A stretch of 64,000 nucleotides of DNA from positions 1-64,000 of the IMG/VR virus record IMGVR_UViG_3300046694_000202; one strand, 5' to 3'. Shown here piece after piece: positions 54,337 to 61,988 of this stretch (within the stretch, counting starts at the first letter, position 1; every line of letters starts with the position of its first letter). The notes under the pieces are model-generated. The model saw only the letters and a program-made list of their open reading frames with translations. It searched no databases and was not told the DNA's origin. The stretch comes from a virus. The position numbers and the translations under genes were made by a program.

Positions 54337-57300
54337 ATGACCGACGCAGTAATTCCCTTCCGTGGGGCGGGCGGTGGCCAGAAGCAGCCGACCCGCACCG
54401 ACGACAACCTCTTCTCTCGCGACGTAGTCGAGATCGTCTTTGCCCTCGGCGAAGGCCCGATCCGCGGCCCGGTCGACGGTATGAAGTCGATCTACGTGGG
54501 CGGCACGCCCGCGATGTCGCAGGACGGCTCCACGAATTTCGACAGCTTCAACGTCGGTATCATGCGCGGCCACGCGGGCGATCCGCCGGTCAACTATCGG
54601 CTCGGTGGCGAAACCTCGAACACGTCGGTCGGCGTTCGACTCTTCCAGAACACGTGGGTCTCGCGCACGACCGATGACTCGCTGCGCAACAAGGTTGACC
54701 AGCTCCAGGCGCGGATTCTCTTCAACACGCTGTACAAGTCCAACGACGATGGCACGTTCAACAACACCGCGTCGTTCGAACTCCAGTATCGCCAGTCGAC
54801 CAACCCGAACTGGTCAGCGGTCAACGGTGGCACGATCAACGTCACAGGCAAGACCACGGCTGGCTATGTGGTCGACTATGTGTGGGACGTGCCGCGCGTG
54901 AATGACACGTGGGTCATCCGCGTGAAAAAGAACAACCCGGATTCGAGCAACACCGACTTCTGTGACTTTAGCTGGGAGAGCTTTCAGGAAGTCACGAAGG
55001 GCAACCGCACGTACGACCGCGTGGCCCTCATGCACATCGTCGCGCTCGCGACGAGCCAGTTCTCGTCGGTGCCCGACATCGGCATCGATCTGGACGGTCT
55101 CGAGATTTTGGTCCCGACGAACTACAACCCCGACGCGCACGCAACCGCTGGCACGTGGGATGGCTCCTTCAAGCAGGCGTGGACGAACAATCCGGCGTGG
55201 ATCCTGTACGACCTCATCATGAACACGAGCTACGGGCTGCGGAAATATTACCCGTGGCTCACGTGCAACCGCTTCGACTTCTACGACGCGGCAGCATGGT
55301 GCGACGCGCCTGTCCCGAACGGTGTGGGTGGCTCGCAGCCGCGCTACACGTTCAGCATGGTCGTCAAGGACCAGCAGTCGGGCCTCGACATGCTCCAATA
55401 CGTGGCGGGTTCCTTCGGCGCGTGCATCTTCGATGACGCGACGGGAACGGTGCATCTGCGCGTGGACAAGTGGGAAGAGCCGTCTATGCTCTTCACCCCA
55501 GAGAACGTGACCCCGGAAGGCTTCGCCTACACGTTCTCGGACATGAGCACTCGATACAACGACATCGAGGTCAAGTTCGTGAACCCGGACCTGGACTGGC
55601 AGCAGGACATCCGGCCCGCGCGCAATCAGGATCACATCAATCTCAACGGCAGCATCCCACTCTCCTTTGACGCCATCGGCTGCACGAACGAGCACGAAGC
55701 ACTGCGCCGCGCCTACTATCGCCTCGTCACGGCCACGACGGAAGTCGCGACGGTGCAGTTCACGACCACGCGCCTCGGCGTGCTGCTCGACCCCTTCAAG
55801 CCGATCTACGTCGCCGACCCGGTGACGGGCTGGGCCGAGAGCGGCCGGATCAAGTCGATCATCAACGGCAAGATCAACCTGCGCGACCCGATCTACTTCA
55901 CGAGCAACCAGAACTACACGCTGAAGCTGCAGACCACCACGGGCATCTCGACGTTCACTGTGAACCCCGGCATGATCGGCTCGGTGTATGCGCTCAACAT
56001 CGTGTCTGGCATCGTGCCGGCGAACGTGCCTGATCGCTCGGTGTTCTCGCTGGAGGACACAGGTGGCTTCGGTCTGTCGAAGCCGTTCCGTGTGATCTCG
56101 GTGGAGCCGGCCGACAACAGCCCGAACGCATACTCGGTCACCGCTGTTGAGATGAACATCAACAAGCAGTGGGCCGCAGACAACTGCATCCCGATCGGCT
56201 CGGTCCCGTACTCGTTCAAGAACCCGCTGATTCCGCCGCCGCCGAGCAACCTCGTCTGCGAGTCGGGCACGGACATGCTGCTGCTCGGGCAAGACGGCTC
56301 GATCATGGCGCGGATCTTCGCCCACTGGGATCCGCCCGGTAGCGCGCTGGTCGACCGCTACATCATCCGCTGGAAGGAAAGCCTCCAGAACACGTGGTTC
56401 GAGACGAACTCCACGGGCGAGAGCGTCATCCTCGCACCGTGCAAGACCGGCACGACCTACGACATCGTGATCGAGGCGGTGAGCGCGTTCGGCTATCGCA
56501 GCTCGCAGCTGCAGCTCTGGAACTATAAGTGCGTCGGCAAGGACCAGCCGCCGAGCAACGTGAAGAACTTCCGCTTCACGCGCCGCGCGCTCGACATCCT
56601 GCTGACGTGGGATGCGATCCCTGACTTGGACCGCTTCGGCTACGAGCTGCGCCTTGGCTCCACGTGGGACACCGCGAAGGTGCTCGTGACCGACTACGCG
56701 GCCACGCAGTTCGCCTGGACGACGGACACGGGCGGCAGCTACAACTTCCTGATCCGCGCGAAGGACACGTCGGGCAACCTGTCGCTGCAAGCGACGATCT
56801 GCTCGGCGCTGCTCACCGGCCCGTCGCCGGTTGGCGGCGTCATCGCGATCCAGTCGGGCAACCGCGTGGACTTGCGCTGGGATCCGAACCCCGAGGACAA
56901 CATCCTCGACTACGAGATCCGCGAAGGCTCGACGTGGGCCACCGGCATCTTCTTGGCGAAGGTCAAGTCGACGAGCTACAGCGTGACCGCTGGTTCGTCT
57001 GGCACGCGCCTCTTCTGGCTCAAGGCCATCGCCTCACCGGGGATCTACTCCGACAAGGCGACGTTCGTCACGACCGACATCGCGAAGTCCGACAACACGA
57101 ACATCATCTACACCACAGACGAAGTGGTGAACCAGTTCGCCGGCACGAAGTACAACATGGTCACCTACGGCCCCGCGCAGCTGCGGATGGACGACGGCAA
57201 GGCCAAGTCGGAATACATGTTCTCGGTCGCGCTCGCGGACGTGTTCAAGGCACAGAACTCGCTGTTCATCGGCCTGGACGCGATCGTCGACGACAAGACG

Positions 57301-57921
57301 ACCTGGGCGCAATCGACCTATCCTTGGAAAGACCCGCAAGCGAACAAGGGCTGGACGACCCCTGGCGACGTGGCGTCGATCAAGTACTCGATCCAGATCT
57401 CGATGTCGACGGGCAACCCGACCGGCGTGCTGTACCAGTGGCGCATGGACAACACGCTGACTTACGCGGGCGTTGGCGAAGATGGCTCGGTCACCGAAAG
57501 CCAGACGGTCACGTACAAACCGAGCAAGTACGGCGCCGGACTCTACTGTCAAGTCGCCCCGCTGCAACCGCTGCCGACGAAGGTCACGTTCAGCACCAAC
57601 GTGCCGAACATCTTCAGCACCACGTTCTGGATCCTGCCGGATGACCTGACCGACAAGGTGTTCATGACGGTGGTCGGCCGTGACGGGAAGTTCATCAAGC
57701 TCGGCTACACCGCCGCCACCCTGTCGCTGTATGCGATCGACAACGATGGCACGAAAGTCTCGATGCCGATCGGTCTCGCAGTGGGCGAGCGCTTCCTCGT
57801 CGGTCTGTCGCAAGACACGAACGATCGCCGGATCTACTTCGCGAAGGAAAGCGGCGCGTGGTATCGCGCGTCGATCGCCAAGGGTGGAATCGGCGCTGGC
57901 GTCCAAGTCAAACTCTACTGA
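54337..57921 (+). CDS. central tail tip protein, host specificity (gpJ-like)
   Basis: 1194 residues. N-terminal hub (about 1-480) with GEGPIRGPVDGMKSIYVGGT and tip-attachment core features, followed by three fibronectin type III-like domains (about 630-905: FAHWDPPGSALVDRYIIRWK; TWDAIPDLDRFGYELRLGST; RWDPNPEDNILDYEIREGST). The C-terminal third is a beta-rich receptor-facing region. It ends the conical tail tip and contacts the cell. 3-base spacing to the next gene. Confidence 0.93.
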   Translation: MTDAVIPFRGAGGGQKQPTRTDDNLFSRDVVEIVFALGEGPIRGPVDGMKSIYVGGTPAMSQDGSTNFDSFNVGIMRGHAGDPPVNYRLGGETSNTSVGVRLFQNTWVSRTTDDSLRNKVDQLQARILFNTLYKSNDDGTFNNTASFELQYRQSTNPNWSAVNGGTINVTGKTTAGYVVDYVWDVPRVNDTWVIRVKKNNPDSSNTDFCDFSWESFQEVTKGNRTYDRVALMHIVALATSQFSSVPDIGIDLDGLEILVPTNYNPDAHATAGTWDGSFKQAWTNNPAWILYDLIMNTSYGLRKYYPWLTCNRFDFYDAAAWCDAPVPNGVGGSQPRYTFSMVVKDQQSGLDMLQYVAGSFGACIFDDATGTVHLRVDKWEEPSMLFTPENVTPEGFAYTFSDMSTRYNDIEVKFVNPDLDWQQDIRPARNQDHINLNGSIPLSFDAIGCTNEHEALRRAYYRLVTATTEVATVQFTTTRLGVLLDPFKPIYVADPVTGWAESGRIKSIINGKINLRDPIYFTSNQNYTLKLQTTTGISTFTVNPGMIGSVYALNIVSGIVPANVPDRSVFSLEDTGGFGLSKPFRVISVEPADNSPNAYSVTAVEMNINKQWAADNCIPIGSVPYSFKNPLIPPPPSNLVCESGTDMLLLGQDGSIMARIFAHWDPPGSALVDRYIIRWKESLQNTWFETNSTGESVILAPCKTGTTYDIVIEAVSAFGYRSSQLQLWNYKCVGKDQPPSNVKNFRFTRRALDILLTWDAIPDLDRFGYELRLGSTWDTAKVLVTDYAATQFAWTTDTGGSYNFLIRAKDTSGNLSLQATICSALLTGPSPVGGVIAIQSGNRVDLRWDPNPEDNILDYEIREGSTWATGIFLAKVKSTSYSVTAGSSGTRLFWLKAIASPGIYSDKATFVTTDIAKSDNTNIIYTTDEVVNQFAGTKYNMVTYGPAQLRMDDGKAKSEYMFSVALADVFKAQNSLFIGLDAIVDDKTTWAQSTYPWKDPQANKGWTTPGDVASIKYSIQISMSTGNPTGVLYQWRMDNTLTYAGVGEDGSVTESQTVTYKPSKYGAGLYCQVAPLQPLPTKVTFSTNVPNIFSTTFWILPDDLTDKVFMTVVGRDGKFIKLGYTAATLSLYAIDNDGTKVSMPIGLAVGERFLVGLSQDTNDRRIYFAKESGAWYRASIAKGGIGAGVQVKLY

Positions 57922-58451: not shown

Positions 58452-59936
58452 ATGCAGAATTACACCCAGATTCCGGACAGCCAGCGGATCTCCGATTCGC
58501 TGCTGCCGCTCCTGAATAACGACCAGACCGGGATCTCGCGCAACGCCGGGGACAACTACCCGACCATCGGTCTCGTCGTGGGGATGCCCTACTACAGCAC
58601 GAGCCAGAACAAGCTGTTCCGCCTGTCGAGCCTGTCACCGCTCACGTGGGTGGTCGAGATCGACTACAACCGGCCGTACGCGTATCAGGATAGCGTCGAT
58701 GCTGCAAACGCAAACGCCAACGGGCGCGTGTCGCGGGCCGGCGACATCATGTCGGGCTTCCTCACGCTGAGCGGCGACCCGACCGCCGCGCTGCACGCCG
58801 CGTCGAAACGGTACGTCGATGCGCAGACCACCGTCGCGATCAACAGCGCGAACTCGCGCGTCTCGCGCGGCGGCGACAGCATGTCTGGTTTCCTGACGCT
58901 GTACACCGACCCGCAGCAGCCCTACCACGCCGCGACGAAGAACTACGTCGACGTGTACATCAACAGCTTGGCGGGCAGCAAGCTCGCGAAGAACGGCGAC
59001 ACGCTCGGCGAAGTGTTCAACAACGGCTGGTATCGCTCAAACGGCGCGGTGGGCTGGTACAACCAGACGTATGGTGGCGGCATCTTCCAGAACCAGGGGG
59101 GCTACGTCAGCACCTTTGGCGGCACAGGCTTCCTGACTCCGTGGCACACGCTCGAAGTGAACACGGGCGGCATCTGGACGGCGCGCTACGGCTGGCTCGA
59201 AAACCGGTTCGCGGACAAGAGCGCCGAGGGCAGCTTCAACTCGTGCGGCACGCTGAACAACTCGACGAACCCGACCGTGGTCCCCGGCTCGTTCTATCTC
59301 CAGGCGAGCGGCCGTCAGGTGCAGCTCGTGCGTACCTTCGGCAACTGCAACTGCAACTGCGCCTGCACGTGCTTCCCCGCAGGCACGCGGATCCTGATGG
59401 GCGACAAGAAGACGTGGCGCGCGGTCGAGACGCTGCAGGTCGGCGAGATCGTCATGACCCCGACCGGCCCCGAGCCGATCCTTGAGATCGAGACGCCGTA
59501 CCTTGGCTCGCGCAAGATGTGCATGTTCGCCGACGGCTCGCTGAAGTGGACCGATGACCACGCGTTCTGGACGCGCCGCGACGGCGTGCAGGGATTCTCG
59601 GTGGTCGACAAGGACTCGTTCATGAACGGCGTCGAGGCGGGTCTCGTGAAGGGCCTGAAGAACCACGACGACCTGCTGGTGATGAACGACCGCCTGGACG
59701 AGTTCGCGCACCTTGAGGGCTGGAAGAAGAAGCGCGTGTTCCGCTACACGCAGCCGGCCGAAACGAAGGTCTATCTGCCGATCGTCGGTGGCTCGCACAT
59801 GATCATCGCTGAAGGCTTCGTCGTCAGCGCGGGCATGGACGAAGAGACGTTCGACTACAAATCGCTGGACTGGAAGGGCATGGACATCGCTCACCAGCCA
59901 ATCAACCGTGAGGCGTTCTTCGATGCTCGTTCATAA
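58452..59936 (+). CDS. tail fibre with C-terminal CxCxCxCxC tract and Hint (intein-like) domain
   Basis: 494 residues. Residues about 1-75 probably attach the fibre. Two fibre repeats follow (AGDIMSGFLTLSGDPTAALH and GGDSMSGFLTLYTDPQQPYH, each ending YVD; about 95-170), then a beta-rich shaft/tip (about 175-290). The tract at 299-307 has Cys at every second position, and C307 begins a Hint domain (CFPAGTRILM; block B motif KWTDDHAFWT with His370). The usual C-terminal His-Asn of splicing inteins is absent (ends VVSAGM), so N-terminal cleavage or ester transfer at C307 is expected instead of splicing. The stop overlaps the next start by 14 bases. Confidence 0.88.
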   Translation: MQNYTQIPDSQRISDSLLPLLNNDQTGISRNAGDNYPTIGLVVGMPYYSTSQNKLFRLSSLSPLTWVVEIDYNRPYAYQDSVDAANANANGRVSRAGDIMSGFLTLSGDPTAALHAASKRYVDAQTTVAINSANSRVSRGGDSMSGFLTLYTDPQQPYHAATKNYVDVYINSLAGSKLAKNGDTLGEVFNNGWYRSNGAVGWYNQTYGGGIFQNQGGYVSTFGGTGFLTPWHTLEVNTGGIWTARYGWLENRFADKSAEGSFNSCGTLNNSTNPTVVPGSFYLQASGRQVQLVRTFGNCNCNCACTCFPAGTRILMGDKKTWRAVETLQVGEIVMTPTGPEPILEIETPYLGSRKMCMFADGSLKWTDDHAFWTRRDGVQGFSVVDKDSFMNGVEAGLVKGLKNHDDLLVMNDRLDEFAHLEGWKKKRVFRYTQPAETKVYLPIVGGSHMIIAEGFVVSAGMDEETFDYKSLDWKGMDIAHQPINREAFFDARS

Positions 59937-60630
59937 AAGCCTGATCCCCACGGATCTCACCGAAGAGGAAGCGCAGCAGACCGTTGACATCGTCAACGTT
60001 CTGCCGGTCGGCAACGGCTTCACGATGCAGTGCGCGTCGCTGAGCCTCTACTGGCAGTTCAATCTCGACCTCGTCAAGTACGGCAACGACGTGATGTACC
60101 TGTGTCGTACCCGTACCAACCAGTGGGTCGTGATGTGGGCCACGGATCTGCACGAGTCGAAGGACAGCTTTTCCTCGGCTATGCTGCGCAAGAACGTGGA
60201 TGAGTTCAAACCAGTGGTGATGATCGGCATCAACGCGGACAAGACCGACTACACCGCCCTCTTCTTCTGCAACTCGCGCGAACCTAACAACCCGAATCCC
60301 CAGGTTGATGACGCCGCCGAGAGTGGTGACATGACGATGAAGCGGTTGATGCCATCGATCGAGCCGTTGTTGCAACGTCATTGGGCCAAGCACAAGCTGC
60401 TCAAGGACACGAAAACGAACGACTCATTGGCCGCTCTGGAGGCCCAAGTGGACCTGCTCACGAGCTGGCTGCTGATGCTCCTGCCCCTGCAGGCCGACAA
60501 GCTCCAAAGACTCCTTGACGTTGGCGTGCTGACGTTGAAAGATAGTGACGTAGCCCTGGATGACGTGGTCGCATTTAAAAGCGCACTCCGTGAAAGGCAG
60601 GCGCTTTACCTCGCGACTATCGGCAAATGA
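59923..60630 (+). CDS. unknown protein coupled to fibre and radical SAM genes
   Basis: 235 residues. An N-terminal region (PTDLTEEEAQQTVDIVNVLP, then LSLYWQFNLDLVKYGNDVMY) recalls small binding proteins, followed by a helical C-terminal half (AQVDLLTSWLLMLLPLQADK). No family recognised. It overlaps the fibre gene by 14 bases and the radical SAM gene by 4 bases, so it is probably a chaperone, recognition protein or partner in fibre processing (inference). Confidence 0.7.
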   Translation: MLVHKSLIPTDLTEEEAQQTVDIVNVLPVGNGFTMQCASLSLYWQFNLDLVKYGNDVMYLCRTRTNQWVVMWATDLHESKDSFSSAMLRKNVDEFKPVVMIGINADKTDYTALFFCNSREPNNPNPQVDDAAESGDMTMKRLMPSIEPLLQRHWAKHKLLKDTKTNDSLAALEAQVDLLTSWLLMLLPLQADKLQRLLDVGVLTLKDSDVALDDVVAFKSALRERQALYLATIGK

Positions 60631-61988
60631 CAACCTTCGTTCTCAAGACGCTCGACGCTAACAACGTCGAGCGTCGGTTTTTCTACAACAACATGCGCAG
60701 CACGCTGGTCGAGGCACAGACCGGCCGCTCGGTGATTCCGACTCGAGCCGCAGACACCCCGCAAAGCCCCGCCCAGCAAGACTTCCGCAAATCGAAAACG
60801 ATCCGGACGCTGAAGATCCAGCTCGGTCTCTCGTGTAATTACAGCTGCGATTACTGCTCGCAGCGCTTCGTGCCGCACGACGAGCCGACTGGCCCCTACT
60901 CCGTCGACCACTTCATCTCGCGCTTGAGCTGGAACGCCTCGCTCGCCGACGATGCCACGATCGAGTTCTGGGGTGGCGAGCCGCTGGTCTACTGGAAGAC
61001 GCTGGTCCCGCTGGTCGAGCAGCTGCGCATCCGCTACCCCGCGCTCACGTTCCGCATGATCACGAACGGCTCGCTGCTGGACCCGATGAAGGCGAGCTGG
61101 CTGATCACGAACGGCTTCCACATCGGCATCAGCCACGACGGTCCTGGCCAGCACGTGCGCGGCCCCGATCCGCTCGATGATCCGGAGAAGCGCGAGGCGA
61201 TCCTCATGCTGTACCGGCGCCTGCGTCCGCTCGGCCGTATCAGTTTCAACGCGATGCTGCACTCGCAAAATACGTCGCGCGCGGCGATCCAGCAGTTCTT
61301 CGTGAAGCTCACGGGCGACGAGGAAGTGCCGGTCGGTGAAGGCATGTTCGTCGATGCCTACGATGAAGGTGGCCGGGGCATGTCTTTCCTTGACGCCGCG
61401 GATCACGTCGAATATCGTCGCAAGGCGTTCACCGAGCTGAAGTCTGGGCTGGCCCTCAACTTCGGATCGGTGACCGAAAAGATTCACGACTTTGCAGAGT
61501 CAGTCGCCACGGGTCGGCCGGCGTCTACCGTAGGGCAGAAGTGCGGTTCCGATCGCGCGGACACCCTCACGGTGACACTGACAGGCGACGTTCTCACTTG
61601 CCAAAACGTCTCGGCTGTTTCCGTTGCCCCGAACGGGAAGAGCCACCGCGCTGGCAATTGGGACGAAATGGATCAGGTGCGGGTCGCCTCCTCGCGCCAC
61701 TGGTCGACTCGTGAGCACTGTTCGAGCTGCCCGGTCGTGCAATTGTGCAAGGGCAGCTGCATGTTCCTCGAAGGCGATCTCTGGAATGTCACGTGCGATA
61801 CGGCCTACAGCGATAACGTCGTGTTCCTCGCGACCGCCCTTCTGGAGCTGACCGGCTGCACCCTGCAACGCATCGAGCCGATGACTGGCTCGTTGCCTGA
61901 GCACCGCCAGGACGTTTTCACGCCACTGGCGAAAAAGAGCGGGACCACCACCCCGCGCAAAATCATACGGATCAACACGGAAAAGTAA
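60627..61988 (+). CDS. radical SAM enzyme with complete SPASM domain
   Basis: 453 residues. The radical SAM core has the CNYSCDYC (CxxxCxxC: C70, C74, C77) cluster site and the GGEP glycine motif EFWGGEPLVYW (about 113-123). The C-terminus carries the full SPASM pattern: C306-x13-G-x4-C325, then C365-x2-C-x5-C-x3-C378 and a final C390, which would hold two auxiliary [4Fe-4S] clusters. Enzymes of this type modify peptides or proteins (thioether links, oxidised Ser/Cys, epimerised residues). A phage-encoded, fibre-linked copy with all these cysteines is unusual; the fibre is the obvious candidate substrate (inference). Confidence 0.95.
   Translation: MTTFVLKTLDANNVERRFFYNNMRSTLVEAQTGRSVIPTRAADTPQSPAQQDFRKSKTIRTLKIQLGLSCNYSCDYCSQRFVPHDEPTGPYSVDHFISRLSWNASLADDATIEFWGGEPLVYWKTLVPLVEQLRIRYPALTFRMITNGSLLDPMKASWLITNGFHIGISHDGPGQHVRGPDPLDDPEKREAILMLYRRLRPLGRISFNAMLHSQNTSRAAIQQFFVKLTGDEEVPVGEGMFVDAYDEGGRGMSFLDAADHVEYRRKAFTELKSGLALNFGSVTEKIHDFAESVATGRPASTVGQKCGSDRADTLTVTLTGDVLTCQNVSAVSVAPNGKSHRAGNWDEMDQVRVASSRHWSTREHCSSCPVVQLCKGSCMFLEGDLWNVTCDTAYSDNVVFLATALLELTGCTLQRIEPMTGSLPEHRQDVFTPLAKKSGTTTPRKIIRINTEK

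Follow-up and report, generated by a model that had tools for sequence, protein, structure and literature searches.

We analysed a window of 64,000 nucleotides of viral DNA, positions 1 to 64,000 of IMG/VR record IMGVR_UViG_3300046694_000202 (83,429 bases in all), and concentrated on a tail-fibre gene whose product carries a tract of alternating cysteines followed by a Hint domain, and on a radical S-adenosylmethionine (SAM)/SPASM enzyme encoded two genes further on. An earlier note on this DNA, made from its letters alone, had drawn attention to 59310-59936 as a Hint stretch. These positions are in frame with a 494-amino-acid open reading frame (ORF), 58452-59936, and form the end of that gene; the Hint domain does lie within them, but their start falls in the fibre proper. 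The gene comes after a J-like gene and one small protein and is followed by a 235-amino-acid protein and the radical-SAM/SPASM gene. Because of its place behind the J-like gene, we assign the Hint fibre to the tail tip. The features are as follows:

54337-57921, plus strand: central tail fibre J-like gene, upstream of the Hint fibre (phrog_31, E 7e-162)
58452-59936, plus strand: tail-fibre gene, 494 amino acids, with N-terminal fibre repeats, alternating-Cys tract and Hint domain (ORF; PHROG tail fiber matches)
59343-59369, plus strand: alternating-Cys tract N298-T306 (NCNCNCACT), immediately before the Hint nucleophile (from the sequence)
59370-59831, plus strand: Hint domain, C307-A460 (AlphaFold2 model and PDB matches)
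59923-60630, plus strand: 235-amino-acid protein of the P0002 family, 240 amino acids if the GTG at 59908 is the start; it lies between the fibre and radical-SAM genes in JWF-like phages
60627-61988, plus strand: radical-SAM/SPASM protein, 453 amino acids, phrog_1802 (PF04055, E 3.6e-7; TIGR04085, 32.5 bits with a cut-off of 27; phrog_1802, E 8e-62)

The tract reads N298-C-N-C-N-C-A-C-T306 and abuts C307. The cassette of fibre, P0002 and radical-SAM genes is shared by Achromobacter phages JWF and 2-1 and by other phage contigs, and the fibre protein is 47% identical to a JWF protein annotated as Hom_end-associated Hint. The tract is NCNCDCNCNCS in JWF and NCNCDCNCS in phage 2-1; hence, the boundary with the Hint is constant and the number of repeats varies. 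Among 80 distinct tract proteins the tract has 4 to 12 Cys, the first pair is Asn-Cys in 79, and the 382 residues that alternate with Cys are N (231), A (62), D (62), T (14), S (6) and others (7). We rejected chance low-complexity sequence as an explanation, since codons vary synonymously among relatives. The narrow composition, dominated by N, A and D with an almost invariant first pair, makes the tract a plausible enzyme substrate.

Tract and radical-SAM enzyme are linked from whichever side one starts. When viral loci were fetched with the enzyme as the sole query (80 retained from at least 574 relatives among at least 600 stretches; loci are given below by their L numbers), 57 of 80 had an ORF with four or more alternating Cys on the strand of the enzyme, and one of 80 had such an ORF on the other strand. 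The 23 loci lacking a four-Cys tract comprise five with a shorter Cys-rich end (L271, L291, L299, L305 and L321), 12 with less than 2 kb of upstream sequence and six with a full flank. In 63 control viral loci free of radical-SAM genes we found any tract in only three; all were on the minus strand, of an unrelated kind and without the NC pattern. In the reverse test, 39 of 120 pattern-matching stretches had a tract in frame, in an ORF of at least 100 amino acids, at most 12 amino acids from the stop and preceded by N, D or A. Of these 39 coding C-terminal tracts, 26 are accompanied by this radical-SAM enzyme, four by a weaker, more distant one, and nine are cut off within 3 kb downstream; wherever sequence is available, none is without a radical-SAM gene. 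Five of the 39 (L141, L143, L152, L171 and L173) share an identical tract. The 81 stretches outside the rule include spurious frames, and also L134, L229, L139, L140/L175/L191, L244 and L247; L134 and L229 have the enzyme, and L139 has a weak radical-SAM match 3 kb away.

A narrower scan, for CxCxCxCF followed by x-(A/G)-G-T, returned 15 viral stretches, all in records with the radical-SAM family except L017, whose contig stops about 0.9 kb past the tract. The same pattern in species genomes returned 29 stretches, mostly spurious frames, with four clear tract-plus-Hint ORFs (L099, L106, L111 and L123), each close to the enzyme gene. A fifth such stretch, from Rugamonas (L124, CYCCCSCFTAGT), differs from the others. 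Looking up the enzyme at the level of whole records gave a match in 10 of 19 records (one of them weak, L139), the other nine being records of 4-24 kb. We considered a class of Hint phages without a radical-SAM gene (L008, L013, L014, L099 and L123) and rejected it: in all five tract-plus-Hint loci the gene was outside the fetched piece, 1.2-2.6 kb downstream in the same record. Separately, in L139, L159, L183, L197 and L246 the gene for a tail protein with the same kind of terminal tract neighbours one for another, distantly related radical-SAM protein (identity about 22-27% for L159, L183, L197 and L246), perhaps a second, parallel system.

The tract could instead be a metal- or disulfide-binding tip, with the radical-SAM enzyme acting elsewhere in the tail and the Hint merely trimming the fibre. 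Free variation in length is what would be expected of a repetitive ligand array, and alternating Cys in the trimeric, beta-rich end of a fibre would presumably face their thiols one way. However, tract and enzyme co-occur in both tests, and the tract composition is narrower than metal binding requires, so that we regard this explanation as unlikely. The tract is probably modified by the radical-SAM/SPASM enzyme, as their linkage suggests.

We then asked where the tract lies in its protein. For this count we took 150 loci with the enzyme, which gave the 80 distinct tract ORFs (one row per distinct ORF end), leaving aside ORFs below 60 amino acids, ORFs running off the piece and tracts more than 6.5 kb from the enzyme. 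In 62 of the 80 proteins at most seven amino acids come after the tract, in 18 a Hint domain follows it immediately, and in none is the tract internal; in 79 of 80 the tract protein is encoded upstream of the radical-SAM gene. One Hint-less case is L090, in which the gene before the enzyme encodes a 112-amino-acid protein ending in GNCNCDCACDCACDCACDCACDCACS. On a tree of 86 enzymes (65 with C-terminal tracts, 21 with Hint), the Hint label requires six changes, at least four of them forced by starred branches; this is a quick tree with a long-branch warning for L015, L106 and L330, and the Hint label was set by hand for L328, L335 and L336, where the tract lies beyond the piece. As judged from these sequences, the Hint is an exchangeable part: it was acquired or lost several times over the enzyme tree, and its boundary with the tract is the same every time. 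Because it comes and goes exactly where N-terminal cleavage would make the tract a C-terminus, it is most simply understood as a self-removing piece.

The earlier note had proposed a Hint domain, to be checked by structure prediction. Sequence profiles matched Pfam Hint_2 weakly (E 0.075; 13.8 bits, where the cut-off is 28.4), and with phmmer a PDB protein that has an intein C-terminal domain matched, also weakly, at E 0.0027. We built an AlphaFold2 model from 13 aligned relatives (mean predicted local distance difference test (pLDDT) score 80, predicted template modelling score 0.78). Foldseek returned 40 PDB chains at E of 0.001 or below, those listed being intein, bacterial intein-like (BIL) and hedgehog structures, with the T. 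thermophila BIL2 domain as the best match (E 1.6e-8). With VIA, the model aligned with BIL2 at Z 17.5 over 140 residues and 2.0 Å, with the C. thermocellum BIL at Z 14.7, the gp41-1 intein at 14.8 and hedgehog (1at0) at 13.1. In this register model residue 13 (C307) coincides with the first residue of the intein, and its terminal Asn is matched by model residue 166 (A460). The predicted fold, together with the N-terminal nucleophile and block-B His present in 19 of 19 distinct relatives, places the domain in the Hint superfamily, and on the strength of the model we hold that its Hint fold is real. The relevant parts of the domain are:

59370-59372, plus strand: C307, predicted N-terminal nucleophile (Cys in 19 of 19 relatives; aligns with intein residue 1)
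59550-59561, plus strand: block B, T367-x-x-H370
59796-59798, plus strand: H449, which we take to be a block-F-like His
59826-59834, plus strand: S459-A460-G461, at the site of the splicing-intein His-Asn-(Cys/Ser/Thr) by structural register
59832-59933, plus strand: C-terminal appendix G461-S494, with D468-Y469 and W474 conserved (D, Y and W each in 17 of 19 relatives)

All the residues named in the earlier note are present: C307, FPAGT (F308-T312), T367-x-x-H370 and V457-V458-S459-A460-G461-M462. Its view that block B is kept applies without exception to the His; T367 is Thr in 12 relatives and is replaced by Ser in six and Ala in one. It had also noted that the splicing His-Asn is missing, and this extends to the whole family: S459-A460-G461 stands in its place, and position 460 is never Asn in the 19 relatives (A in 14, G in two, and V, D and S in one each). 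A splicing intein would have C-terminal Asn or Gln and then Cys, Ser or Thr, where this fibre has A460-G461, and we rejected a degenerate intein still capable of splicing because the terminal Asn is missing in 19 of 19. Across the family, the residues indicate that N-terminal-side chemistry is kept and C-terminal-side chemistry is gone. Loss of the Asn chemistry with retention of the N-terminal residues argues for no splicing and probable N-terminal cleavage, one of the two outcomes that the earlier note had named. H449 is apparently not essential to the family, being His in only 13 of 19 relatives.

The top structural rows are BIL2, and the host protein is a tail fibre and not a typical intein-bearing housekeeping protein, as in a BIL domain. 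BIL domains (BIL2 of the T. thermophila BUBL1 locus, 6y75/6tmm; C. thermocellum BIL, 2lwy) share with the fibre domain the Hint fold, the N-terminal Cys and the want of an evident role in extein splicing. The fibre Hint differs from BIL2 in having no terminal Asn (the BIL2 structure is that of a C1A-N143A mutant, which means that Asn is present in wild-type BIL2), and from BIL domains generally in its one fixed place behind an alternating-Cys tract and its pairing with a radical-SAM gene. The hedgehog autoprocessing domain also shares the fold and the Cys nucleophile, likewise without terminal Asn chemistry and with an extra C-terminal part, but its structural score is lower and a sterol or other acceptor is not in evidence for the fibre Hint.

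This comparison bears on the suggestion in the earlier note that the fibre could become attached to a second virion protein or to a molecule of the cell surface. In a hedgehog-like transfer, an alcohol or amine of a virion protein, lipid or glycan would attack the T306 thioester and the tip would become covalently joined to that acceptor. Besides the hedgehog match, the conserved appendix (D468, Y469 and W474) lies behind the Hint, where hedgehog carries its adduct-recognition part, and one Hint cassette (L123) includes a CDP-alcohol phosphatidyltransferase gene. However, the nearest structures are BIL and not hedgehog (Z 17.5 versus 13.1), the 62 of 80 relatives with a C-terminal tract and no Hint need no such step, and nothing in the analysis points to an acceptor; transfer is possible but, in our judgement, quite improbable. 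The appendix itself, a D-Y-x4-W element in 17 of 19 relatives, is possibly a recognition part; pLDDT is low at this end of the model.

Another explanation is that the Hint has lost its cleaving activity and now serves the end of the fibre as a folded cap or a chaperone. The missing terminal Asn and the loss of the block-F-like His in six of 19 relatives would fit a domain that has fallen silent, but the nucleophile Cys and block-B His persist in 19 of 19, in relatives down to about 20-32% identity, and a mere cap would not need them. We consider a cap very unlikely.

The enzyme carries the full set of motifs expected of the radical-SAM/SPASM group, scores above the TIGR04085 cut-off, and in these motifs resembles enzymes acting on peptides and proteins:

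60834-60857, plus strand: CX3CX2C radical-SAM cluster motif, C70-C77 (110 of 110 distinct family members)
61542-61601, plus strand: SPASM motif CX13GX4C, C306-C325 (110 of 110 fit CX9-15GX4C)
61719-61760, plus strand: SPASM motif CX2CX5CX3C, C365-C378 (110 of 110)

The last SPASM Cys is kept in 109 of 110 distinct members. CX3CX2C and the full SPASM cysteines are shared with the maturases of sactipeptides, of ranthipeptides (PapB) and of quinohemoprotein amine dehydrogenase (QhpD). The best NCBIfam equivalog scores, though weak, are of the PapB and QhpD type, both of which form Cys thioethers. Unlike these maturases, the phage enzyme is far under every equivalog cut-off and belongs to its own family, phrog_1802; going by its sequence, it falls outside all the named radical-SAM equivalogs (PapB, QhpD, SCIFF and others). 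Its presumed substrate also differs from that of maturases of ribosomally synthesized and post-translationally modified peptides (RiPPs), being the end of a virion tail protein and not a small leader-bearing peptide. A plasmid search with the L106 enzyme gave matches of only about 22-33%, to other radical-SAM proteins.

The tract and its radical-SAM/SPASM setting, which the earlier note overlooked, best explain the Hint. We think it probable that the phage encodes a cassette for maturing fibre tips, that this fibre is among its substrates, and that the cassette combines N-terminal cleavage by the Hint with modification of the tract by the radical enzyme. The starting point would be the arrangement seen in the window, an alternating-Cys tract and then at once a Hint with predicted N-terminal catalytic residues and no terminal Asn. 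The Hint would convert the T306-C307 peptide bond to a thioester, opened most simply by water; the C-terminal half would leave, and the fibre would end in ...NCNCNCACT, as in its Hint-less relatives. The Hint would thus act as a removable follower, the tract being made internally and then becoming the end. The radical-SAM/SPASM enzyme would modify the tract, the likeliest change being bonds between Cys sulfurs and carbons of neighbouring Asn, Asp or Ala, and the fibre may thereby gain a distal tip, hardened or chemically special, with which it meets the host surface. By analogy, the Hint part of the cassette would act as a BIL or hedgehog domain does, and the enzyme part as a RiPP or protein maturase does.

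Several observations weigh against this interpretation. Six of the 80 enzyme loci have a full upstream flank and no tract (L280, L290, L301, L304, L306 and L317), and near-copies are frequent among the 80, so the counts are not independent. Tract-like runs also occur with no radical-SAM gene in the piece (L140/L175/L191, L244, where the run is internal, and L247). The enzyme matches no NCBIfam equivalog at cut-off (the best is PapB, 55.6 bits of 340), a metal-binding tract would yield an identical sequence pattern, and the block-F-like His is conserved in just 13 of 19 relatives. In L140, L175 and L191 the run is an internal NCNCACNCACDC tract in ORFs of 1,047 to 2,086 amino acids.

The setting seems to us likely to be of more interest than the Hint itself, as a widespread cassette by which phages would finish one end of a tail protein. 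We are close to evenly balanced, leaning slightly to doubt, on the broadest form of the idea: that in many tailed phages a radical-SAM/SPASM enzyme, often with 2-oxoglutarate (2OG)-Fe(II) oxygenases, gives a tail protein a C-terminal alternating-Cys tip that is chemically cross-linked or modified in some other way, the Hint of a minority being a self-removing follower or a means of thioester delivery to a partner. If true, phages apply RiPP-like chemistry to their own receptor-contact structures, and radical chemistry and self-trimming together mature a phage structural protein. Phrog_1802 and some phage 2OG-Fe(II) oxygenases would gain a function, radical-SAM enzymes a new class of substrate, and tail maturation would be the role of some radical-SAM and oxygenase genes that are now counted among the auxiliary metabolic genes of phages. 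A self-exposing C-terminus would also be of use in protein engineering. Cultured phage JWF makes this interpretation testable; its record annotates a 'Hom_end-associated Hint family protein' and an 'anaerobic sulfatase-maturating enzyme' in the same three-gene cassette, separately and with no functional link proposed. We found no description of the pairing of a fibre tract or Hint with a radical-SAM enzyme in the literature searched, from which subscription papers were mostly absent. The main texts of PMC9959647, PMC3899368, PMC7996906 and PMC10457797 contain neither 'radical SAM' nor 'Hint'/'Hint domain', and PMC10783043 mentions a radical-SAM gene next to queuosine-type genes, which is unrelated.

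Related cassettes contain further enzymes. A 2OG-Fe(II)-oxygenase-like gene lies within 4.5 kb on the same strand in 54 of the 80 enzyme loci, with at least two such genes in 11, and in none of the 63 controls; this count uses only seeds above the Pfam cut-off, an earlier figure of 55 of 80 having used seeds not all Pfam-confirmed. Examples are L295:2960-4817 and L278:4315-4998, which match Pfam PF13759/PF13640, L289:4264-4887, and others among L248-L327. No 2OG-Fe(II) oxygenase is among the ORFs listed between fibre and enzyme in the window. Hint loci L248-L254, L311, L313 and L318 have no oxygenase-like gene nearby; Hint locus L289 has one. Phage 2OG oxygenases may be tail-maturation enzymes.

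Other enzymes were each seen in single cassettes. The next gene after the tract-plus-Hint fibre gene encodes a class V (SerC-like) aminotransferase in L311 (3032-4126) and L014, and after it come a P0002-like gene and then a radical-SAM gene. A fatty-acid desaturase (PF00487) immediately precedes the radical-SAM gene at L325:4181-4894, and the CDP-alcohol phosphatidyltransferase (PF01066) of L123, a Rhodospirillaceae genome, lies between the tract-plus-Hint and radical-SAM genes at 360-1160 on the minus strand. They suggest more than one way of elaborating tips, though each is a single observation. A protein of about 275-310 amino acids often follows the tract gene (L283:3395-4315, L295:2136-2960, L298:4123-4995); those of L283 and L298 have no Pfam match, and the C-terminus looks Ig-like by eye. 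The P0002 protein received no name from Pfam, NCBIfam or PHROGs, and its AlphaFold2 model gave no PDB match (best Foldseek E 0.16). Its relatives, down to 23% identity, have in common an A-L-E-x-Q-V-D-L-L stretch (window 59923-60630; L264:1528-2295; L311:4190-4987).
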